The translations under genes were made by a program, and so were the position numbers. Source: Bacteroidaceae bacterium (lineage in GTDB: Bacteria; Bacteroidota; Bacteroidia; Bacteroidales; Bacteroidaceae). From it: 64,000 nt of DNA. This document shows, in pieces, positions 21,448 through 22,965 of this stretch. The stretch covers positions 62,001 to 126,000 of the forward strand of contig JAFTNZ010000030.1 in NCBI GenBank assembly GCA_017451645.1, in the 5' to 3' direction. The notes beneath the pieces are model-generated. The model saw nothing but the letters and a program-made list of their open reading frames with translations. It was not told the DNA's origin and made no database searches. The first letter of the stretch is position 1, and each line of letters starts with the position of its first letter.

Positions 21448-22668
21448 TTAAAAATTACGGATGACGACATGCAAAGCGTCTTTCCAATTAGGGGATAATT
21501 CGTCTTTTCTGATATCAAAACGAGAACCAGAAGGATTCATCTTACAACCTAATATTTCTTTTAAATACATATCGGCATACAAAGTATTAGCTTGTTGGCA
21601 ACTCTCGTCAAAGGAATAGGCCACACGAACGCCACAACTCAATGTCTCATCTGCTTCGGTGTAGGTTATGACTTCACCTCTTTTAATTTCTATCCGTTCA
21701 GGGGCTGTTGAGATGCAATTCTCACCGTTTTTGTTTCCTTCAGTGGTTTTTACCTTCCAATATGTACGATTTGAAAGCATATATTGTTGGAAATCCAATT
21801 GAATTTTCGCTTTTGCAGGTATGGATACTACACGCTGTGAATAGGTCACAGTAGATGAAGAACTGGACTTACCACCTCCTACGTTTACTCCACCGGCAAG
21901 GGTGCCGACAATACCACCAACGCCCAGTGCATCTGCCACACTTCCCAAATTTACACTTGCACCACCGGAAGAACCGGAAGTTGTTGAGGTAGCCGAGGGC
22001 ACATAATAGGGCGAAGCCTCACCATTTCTGATAAAGAAACTATTTCCCAAATCTAGGTAAACAGTCTTTGTACTGATGTTTTCAACAGTAACCTGAATAC
22101 CCGGATTCCAAGAATCGCAATTTTGTCTGAATGCGGGCTTGTCCTTTTTGCTGTTGCTATAGTATGTACCTGCTTGAAATGTTATTTTCACATTCTTATC
22201 CTGTAATCTTGTATCCTTCTTTAAACCGAATGTACAAAACAGCAAACTTGCTTTTTTATTTTTGGGTTTTGTATATTCTACTCTCTGTTGATTGTATTCC
22301 TCTACAAGCTTGGCATTCAATGCGGCAATCTCAGCTTCTTCTTCCGGTGTAAAGGCCATCGGTTGCTTTTGCGATTGCCCTTGCGAAGGCTGTCCGTTTG
22401 CTGCTGCCTGTCTATTTGTCTCTTCTCCCATAATCACTTTGCGGCCATCCTGATACTTTATCATCAGCACTTGACTTTTGTCTATCTTCTGAATGGCGGC
22501 TTCGGGGGTACTCTCCAATTTGTAAAAGATGGAAGAGCCTCCGATTTCAATCTCATATACCTTGTAAGCATCTCCCTCTTGGGTGATCAGTACATCTTGC
22601 GCCAATAGGGATGATGCAAACCCTAATGACAGTGAGGCGGCAATGCCTAAAACCCTTAACGCTTTCAT
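21448..22668 (-). CDS. Secreted protein of unknown function
   Basis: Starting at the ATG at 22668 the product has 406 residues and a signal peptide (MKALRVLGIAASLSLGFASSLLA). A short beta-rich domain follows (ITQEGDAYKVYEIEIGGSSIFYK...VLMIKYQDGRKVI), of the kind found in many Bacteroidales exported proteins. Next come a Gln/Pro-rich linker, a beta domain, a Ser/Gly-rich segment (about 225-270) and a C-terminal beta domain containing three Cys. No catalytic motif is evident and I do not recognise a named family. Its mRNA would have a 258-nt leader that folds into a long hairpin (see the RNA at 22685-22926). Confidence 0.75.
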   Translation of the reverse strand: MKALRVLGIAASLSLGFASSLLAQDVLITQEGDAYKVYEIEIGGSSIFYKLESTPEAAIQKIDKSQVLMIKYQDGRKVIMGEETNRQAAANGQPSQGQSQKQPMAFTPEEEAEIAALNAKLVEEYNQQRVEYTKPKNKKASLLFCTFGLKKDTRLQDKNVKITFQAGTYYSNSKKDKPAFRQNCDSWNPGIQVTVENISTKTVYLDLGNSFFIRNGEASPYYVPSATSTTSGSSGGASVNLGSVADALGVGGIVGTLAGGVNVGGGKSSSSSTVTYSQRVVSIPAKAKIQLDFQQYMLSNRTYWKVKTTEGNKNGENCISTAPERIEIKRGEVITYTEADETLSCGVRVAYSFDESCQQANTLYADMYLKEILGCKMNPSGSRFDIRKDELSPNWKDALHVVIRNF

Positions 22669-22684
22669 AGAAATAATGTTTTTA

Positions 22685-22926
22685 GGAAACAGAAAAGGCG
22701 TGAAACTATCCGTAACTCGCCTCAATCTTAGGTTACCGCCAAGTGACCTGCACGTTCAACAAGCACAAATAGTTCACACCTCAACGGTGTGAACCTTCCT
22801 CTGCTTGTTCTCGAACGTGAATGTTTGGCGGTATTCAAGATTGAGAGAACAAGAGCTAAAAGCTCAAAATCCATATTTCAAGTGTCGGACAGAGACGCTT
22901 CTCCTGCCTCAGTTAATATTTTTATT
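22685..22926 (-). ncRNA. Candidate structured RNA (6S-like rod) or long leader
   Basis: A promoter at 22933-22965 should start a transcript near 22926. Its central 125 nt form one long rod with 41 base pairs: 22721-22729 with 22837-22845, 22734-22742 with 22825-22833, 22752-22757 with 22813-22818, 22758-22765 with 22802-22809, and 22772-22780 with 22786-22794. An asymmetric internal loop lies in the middle. A weak AGGCG/CGCCT hairpin followed by TTTTCTGTTT comes at the end. An upstream GAGC-TTTTA-GCTC hairpin is also present. The rod with a central bubble recalls 6S RNA, but a cis-acting leader of the downstream gene is equally possible. No 4.5S, tmRNA or RNase P signature is seen. Confidence 0.6.
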
Positions 22927-22932
22927 ATCGGG

Positions 22933-22965
22933 GCAAAGGTAAACAAACTTTTGTAAACGGACAAA
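22933..22965 (-). promoter_or_regulatory. Promoter of the structured RNA
   Basis: The minus strand reads TTTG (complement of 22962-22965), 20 bases, then TACCTTTGC (complement of 22933-22941). This is a full consensus match. Confidence 0.85.

Follow-up and report, generated by a model that had tools for sequence, protein, structure and literature searches.

Bacteria related to Prevotella are common inhabitants of guts and rumens and, to our knowledge, little is known about how they control their surface proteins. 6S RNA, which the locus described here was originally predicted to resemble in shape, is a stand-alone gene present in one or two copies per genome. The transcript map of B. thetaiotaomicron reports the 6S RNA of that species and, in the accessible part of the article, contains nothing on the RNA family described below (PMC7366714). 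The accessible sections of a survey of human microbiomes describe 508 candidate structured RNAs lying ≤25 bp upstream of genes, with HTH_XRE as the commonest downstream domain (15 candidates), as well as palindromic terminator-like candidates of 80–132 bp in Bacteroidetes (PMC8040213). Our own literature search, the scope of which excluded most subscription papers and preprints, found no description of the present family, so its novelty is provisional.

The DNA analysed, hereafter the window, is the whole stretch of 64,000 nucleotides from a Bacteroidaceae bacterium. Judged by comparison of sequences, its minus strand carries a structured, dispersed, sense-strand RNA that lies before start codons and keeps two mutually exclusive sets of helices. 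We interpret this as a 5′ leader that acts in cis, belongs to an apparently new RNA family and is probably a transcription attenuator, a reading that we hold with somewhat better than even confidence. The leader and its surroundings comprise the following features, in the order of transcription:

22934–22965, minus strand: promoter-like site, TTTG (22965–22962), 20 nt, TAnnTTTG (22941–22934)
22685–22926, minus strand: rod-shaped leader RNA with 86 predicted pairs (from folding and a match to covariance model R1)
22887–22892, minus strand: 5′ arm of the rod's outer stem (helix 1), pairing with 22711–22706
22854–22864, minus strand: side hairpin AGC-TTTTA-GCT adjoining S1
22845–22853, minus strand: segment S1, CTTGTTCTC, putative partner of S2 (early hairpin) or, through its first six bases, of S4 (rod)
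22824–22833, minus strand: 5′ strand of the core helix, TACCGCCAAA
22803–22812, minus strand: segment S2, GAGAACAAGC, putative partner of S1 or S3
22767–22798, minus strand: tip hairpin
22758–22764, minus strand: segment S3, GCTTGTT, putative partner of S2 (rod) or S4
22734–22742, minus strand: 3′ strand of the core helix, TTGGCGGTA
22716–22721, minus strand: segment S4, GGCGAG, putative partner of S1 (rod) or S3
22706–22711, minus strand: 3′ arm of the outer stem (from covariation and folding)
22685–22700, minus strand: CGCCTTTTCTGTTTCC, end of the rod and T-run, terminator-like
21448–22668, minus strand: downstream gene for a 406-aa protein with a signal-peptide-like start and no Pfam family

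Energy folding of 22685–22926 on the minus strand gave −103 kcal/mol. Two hundred dinucleotide shuffles averaged −60.35 (sd 4.28) and none folded as low (z −9.96), so the predicted rod exists far beyond chance. Its length had been underestimated, with 86 predicted pairs instead of 41, and the exact pairing claimed for every stem segment is broadly right, save for internal loops and one bulge. The opposite strand also folds well (−84.5 kcal/mol, z −7.11) because the rod is near-palindromic, and the minus strand was assigned from the position of the T-run and the genes. The 3′ end (CGCCTTTTC) has a short T-run, four T in the window copy, after a GCG/CGC stem and lies 17 nt from the ATG of the downstream gene (start 22668), in keeping with the weak terminator and following coding gene of the original prediction. 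A local terminator scan flagged two inner hairpins and nothing at the 3′ end of the rod, which was outside its reach since a loop limit of 3–8 nt excludes a long-range stem.

The window region was searched against 4227 Rfam families, 6S and 6S-Flavo included, with no match at gathering score; laxer filters yielded three matches, each under the gathering score, on the opposite strand and with E ≥0.67. A search of the source genome with RF00013 (6S) found nothing in an assembly that is 72.6% complete, and 6S-Flavo found nothing there or in any of its 14 control genomes. The loci of seven other copies gave no Rfam match to the leader either, and 6S or another known RNA family was rejected. The sole match in these loci was a DUF805b RNA (RF02914), at gathering score, elsewhere in locus L012 (L012:439–473, minus strand), near an HTH-linked leader copy of the source genome and followed by a porin-like gene (named by eye).

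DNA searches of the source genome found five clear copies of the leader, the window's included (E 2e-166 to 2e-13); five further short matches (E ≥0.03) were left uncounted. Each of the five folds with z between −6.5 and −10, and the genes behind them are unrelated, encoding (protein names by eye) the 406-aa protein, a BspA-like repeat protein, a 166-aa protein with a signal-like start, a sigma-factor-like protein and a 68-aa HTH protein. The copy before the 166-aa protein lies ~2.1 kb beyond the left edge of the window on the same contig and strand (G000:C23:59704–59910).

Seventeen of 61 genomes were positive by DNA search, with 1–10 copies each: 12 of 15 from the genus (source genome included), five of 22 from other genera of the family and none of 24 from other families. 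A core pattern matched at least 117 stretches in named genomes, and 76 of the 80 matches listed carried Bacteroidales-type names. Culturable carriers among these records include Leyella stercorea DSM 18206, Paraprevotella clara YIT 11840 and Xylanibacter caecicola PCHR. Pattern matches also occurred in records titled as Bacillota or Roseburia MAGs (L046, L073, L128); L046 and L073, which contain the entire leader, look Bacteroidales and probably come from mislabelled or mixed bins. Model R1, built from 42 copies, matched the window at 22715–22868 (minus strand) with 145.7 bits, its source alignment including the window copy. Wide searches with R1, run under stricter filters that lose weak matches, were positive in 112 of the 301 family genomes sampled (20 of 30 genera), in 57 of 295 of the order and in three of 296 of the phylum, namely the source genome and two others of the class. 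Two genomes of the order sample from other families, G052 (5.7 Mb) and G765 (6.7 Mb), hold nine and 10 copies, respectively, of a divergent subtype with a AAGCGTTTAGCTT side hairpin. Plasmid records gave one match, in Phocaeicola massiliensis (E 3e-11). A phage origin was rejected: the exact core pattern had no match in viral contigs, the window rod had none in phage records, and the stretches found in viral contigs by two looser patterns (at least 120 and 12) were taken as chance since R1 found nothing in the 92 loci passed to it.

Ninety-seven copies passed our filter. Position counts use 95 of these, without L056, which was judged false, and L090, in which no T-run was found; removal of L093 (5′ part absent) as well gave alignment A2 of 94 copies. 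L029, L104 and L113 look real but failed the filter, L058 and L066 were judged chance matches by eye, and the pattern loci used were L043–L122, with L123–L159 contributing two HTH proteins only. Divergent copies found by the model formed alignment A4, from which four mirror-strand matches and one partial mirror-strand match were dropped from 65 to leave 60.

Strand and place are nearly constant across copies, with the leader on the sense strand of the following gene and an ATG ≤57 nt from the T-run in 89 of the 91 measurable copies (of 95; median 20 nt); the remaining two have it 95 and 136 nt away. Within the final 14 nt, 86 of 94 copies have a T-run of at least four and 61 one of at least five. 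By a rough rule for signal peptides and lipoproteins, 82 of the 95 downstream proteins qualify, compared to 146 of 384 other ORFs in the named-genome loci. Pfam searches on 63 downstream proteins found few domains: BspA-type repeats in four, BACON in two, a Por secretion tail in two and others mostly once. Among the 60 divergent copies, 27 satisfy the same rule and ~20 precede a small HTH gene (partly by eye); gene starts often fall 70–110 nt past the end of the model match, so tight spacing between leader and ATG is a trait of nearer relatives and of the HTH cases.

These positions favour the second guess of the original prediction, an unusually long 5′ leader, over its first, a 6S-like RNA; the absence of an Rfam match, five copies in the genome (1–10 per genome in relatives, as against one or two for 6S) and the location just before start codons together argue that the RNA is not 6S-like. 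A free regulatory RNA, whether 6S-like or target-binding, that merely ends before a gene would share the promoter-like start, terminator-like end and looped rod seen here, but it would leave unexplained the several copies without a 6S or other Rfam match and their placement, nearly always immediately upstream of a start codon, which leaves another promoter little space; we consider it very improbable. Upstream of the rod, where a complete consensus promoter had been predicted, there is a match of Bacteroidota type, and a sigma-70 scan found no promoter on the minus strand. TAnnTTTG occurs ≤110 nt upstream in 19 of 94 copies, compared to 3.6% of shuffles, and is absent there from the other 75, so it was rejected as a general promoter of the family.

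A protein-coding origin of the conserved blocks was also rejected, because block spacings fall in all three frames rather than in multiples of three and an ATG frame runs through S1 in only 15 of 94 copies, the window copy included. One such frame, of 48 codons (MDFELLALVL...; window 22874–22728, minus strand), crosses the leader and recurs in similar leaders of the genus; judging by these frames, a leader peptide may exist in that subgroup.

Comparison of copies supports the rod strongly. Across A2, 95.3% of rod cells are paired and 28 of 55 pairs show changes in both partners; double-changed cells number 619 compared to 222.9 in shuffles, with none of 500 shuffles as high (a control inflated by kinship among copies), and sliding the partner strand abolished the signal. 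In helix 1, four of six pairs changed on both sides in some copies. The selection on structure that had been proposed, with compensatory changes in related genomes as its check, is thus well borne out. The pattern used to find the copies accounts in part for the invariant core helix of A2, and in divergent copies found without the pattern this helix changes on both sides (by eye). A loose TATTAAC-like block lies 5′ of the outer stem (A2 columns 36–41); 59 of 94 copies have [AT]TTAA[CT] within 32 nt. A 5′ hairpin around the GCG, present in 61 of 94 copies by a loose rule, was dropped as a universal feature.

Four segments can pair in two sets, either S1:S4 with S2:S3, as in the rod, or S1:S2 with S3:S4. 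The S1:S2 helix has nine pairs, each formed in 92–94 of 94 copies (99% of cells), and is sharply bounded, the next pairs outward forming in one and 17 of 94 copies. Its last three pairs are not explained by complementarity between S1 and S4. At columns 187:234, within this helix, we counted CG 65 times, UA 18 and UG nine, with seven independent CG-to-UA changes on a tree built without those two columns; column 234 is also paired in the rod, mostly as GU. In the 60 divergent copies, each copy's own S1–S2 fit beats swapped partners, with none of 2000 permutations as good, kinship inflating this control too. S3:S4 shows little independent support, being mostly a consequence of the other complementarities.

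With the 3′ half still untranscribed, energy folding gave S1:S2 a median probability of 0.91 (>0.5 in 85 of 94 copies), whereas in the complete leader the rod was favoured by a median of 15.9 kcal/mol and S1:S2 exceeded a probability of 0.1 in only one of 94. These predictions suggest that S1:S2 is an early hairpin, replaced during transcription unless held, and, with the full-length fold so far on the rod side, it may be only a folding intermediate. In the mechanism we propose, S1 would pair with S2 once the 5′ half is transcribed, as energy folding predicts; on completion of the 3′ half the rod (S1:S4, S2:S3) would win and zip to the stem that ends in the T-run before the ATG; the completed rod would stop transcription or otherwise lower expression of the gene; and a signal, be it a ligand, a protein or transcription speed, that holds the S1:S2 form would allow expression. 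As the targets are mostly exported proteins plus, in many genomes, a small HTH protein, one signal could set the gene group together.

The features of an attenuator that were found are a same-strand leader directly before a gene, mutually exclusive helices (from comparison and folding prediction) and a stem followed by a T-run. The 3′ end of the rod is a presumed terminator, and counting against it are the shortness of the T-run in many copies (≥5 T in only 61 of 94; four in the window copy) and the fact that a stem closing over ~180 nt is unusual for an intrinsic terminator. The outer stem could also still form around S1:S2 and S3:S4, which may weaken the case for anti-termination by the early hairpin. 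The same position and structure data would fit a leader that acts on translation or stability with no termination step, the rod protecting the 5′ end, serving as an RNase III substrate or leaving the start region open; the T-rich stretch before the ATG may then be a start region free of structure and not a terminator. Such a reading alone fails to explain an exactly bounded S1:S2 helix or an end made of a stem and T-run (≥4 T in 86 of 94), and we regard it as unlikely.

The leader also appears to have moved between genes. In 13 similar copies from six genomes, identity is 87% for the RNA, whether or not the copies share a genome, 65–66% for the 45 nt just upstream, 48–50% for the preceding 100 nt and 53–54% for the coding starts, compared to 50% for shuffled sequence. 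These copies were chosen as one similar subtype, not at random, and some of their genes, not all, are paralogues with like signal peptides; they nonetheless share the RNA and not the outer flanks or coding starts, which points to transfer of the leader from gene to gene. A homologue 65% identical to the 406-aa protein has a leader in front, of another subtype by eye, and seven homologue copies at 31–42% identity showed no leader match, one of them being cut at a contig edge; this suggests that genes gain and lose the leader, and the lack of a leader match in the more distant homologues also counts against the attenuator reading. A MITE-like mobile palindrome, kept by chance or as a promoter-side insertion and devoid of switch function, would account for a near-palindromic, multi-copy element with such divergent outer flanks and coding starts around the 13 chosen copies, present in some members of one protein family and not in others. 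We judge it quite improbable, however, because MITE-like insertion would be indifferent to strand and start codon, whereas here the leader keeps almost the same position and strand with respect to start codons, and because both helix sets covary over the order.

The HTH protein linked to the leader is Cro/C1-like and ~70 aa long; the Pfam HTH_3 cut-off is passed by one of the four members scanned and that of an NCBIfam model by none. In the family sample (301 genomes), RNA and HTH occur together in 78, RNA only in 34, HTH only in 46 and neither in 143 (odds ratio 7.1); the corresponding counts for the order sample (295 genomes) are 21, 36, 26 and 212 (odds ratio 4.8). In the family sample at least 26 leaders are followed directly by the HTH gene, a lower bound from picked rows and not a rate; in HTH-holding genomes of the order sample the same is true of 30 of 65 listed RNA rows. 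Co-occurrence and adjacency of this kind would be expected if the leader were a binding site, as RNA or as DNA repeats, for the small HTH protein, which would control its own gene and those for exported proteins. Adjacency itself explains part of the co-occurrence, though, and the HTH gene may be one more target; the S1–S2 spacing (~45 nt) also seems ill suited to a single DNA operator. Moreover, at E 1e-8 no HTH was found in 34 of 112 and 36 of 57 RNA-bearing genomes (some assemblies being incomplete), including those with nine and 10 leader copies: the search gave none for G052, and G765 was not among the HTH-positive rows. So many RNA-bearing genomes without an HTH at the threshold used disfavour the protein as a necessary partner, and we rate the binding-site explanation as rather unlikely.

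Among 19 HTH loci examined, two have the leader family and six are preceded by a different strong fold whose shared blocks were noted by eye; the one of these six that was tested against shuffles had z −5.2. This second, shorter rod class before HTH genes of the same family reads GTGGGC ... GGCAATGCGA ... TTCCCAC, often followed by a T-run (by eye):

L272, L274, L276, L277, L281 and L282: second rod class, upstream of HTH genes; further copies in L427–L438

The second rod is dispersed, occurring in 21 of 151 family genomes (DNA search, E 0.001), with four places seen before an HTH match, and had no Rfam match in nine loci. A more ambitious scheme would be an order-wide Bacteroidales system in which the HTH protein recognises S1:S2 of nascent leaders, its own included, and thereby releases or blocks a terminator before a changing set of surface-protein genes, the portable leader being gained and lost and other rods serving other members of the HTH family. 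We offer this as a speculation with a small but real chance of being right.

Returning to the attenuator, a leader common to unrelated exported-protein genes would give a one-RNA handle on a surface gene set, and it would be a natural case both of RNA refolding during transcription, with comparative evidence for the two states, and of a regulatory leader that has passed between genes. Compared to 6S and 6S-Flavo, it shares a long rod with internal loops and differs in matching neither model, in being multi-copy and in standing directly before genes. Riboswitches and protein-controlled antiterminator leaders likewise have alternative folds and several copies per genome before one gene group; the leader differs from these in having no known aptamer by Rfam and a core helix that is not sequence-invariant over the order. 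Its loops are conserved in A2, and its core sequence changes in divergent copies. With the candidates of PMC8040213, for which the accessible sections describe no switch, it was compared by description only, not by sequence. As in trp-type four-segment attenuators, successive segments pair exclusively, the alternative helix comes first and a T-run precedes the structural gene; unlike them, the leader has no conserved leader peptide (S1 frame in 15 of 94), exchanges nested (S1:S4, S2:S3) for tandem (S1:S2, S3:S4) pairing and serves many unrelated targets. The switching leader is thus of a known kind and its family apparently new; its unusual features are that four segments exchange nested for tandem pairing, that the targets are many unrelated genes for exported proteins, that the leader moves between genes and that a family of HTH proteins is linked to it.
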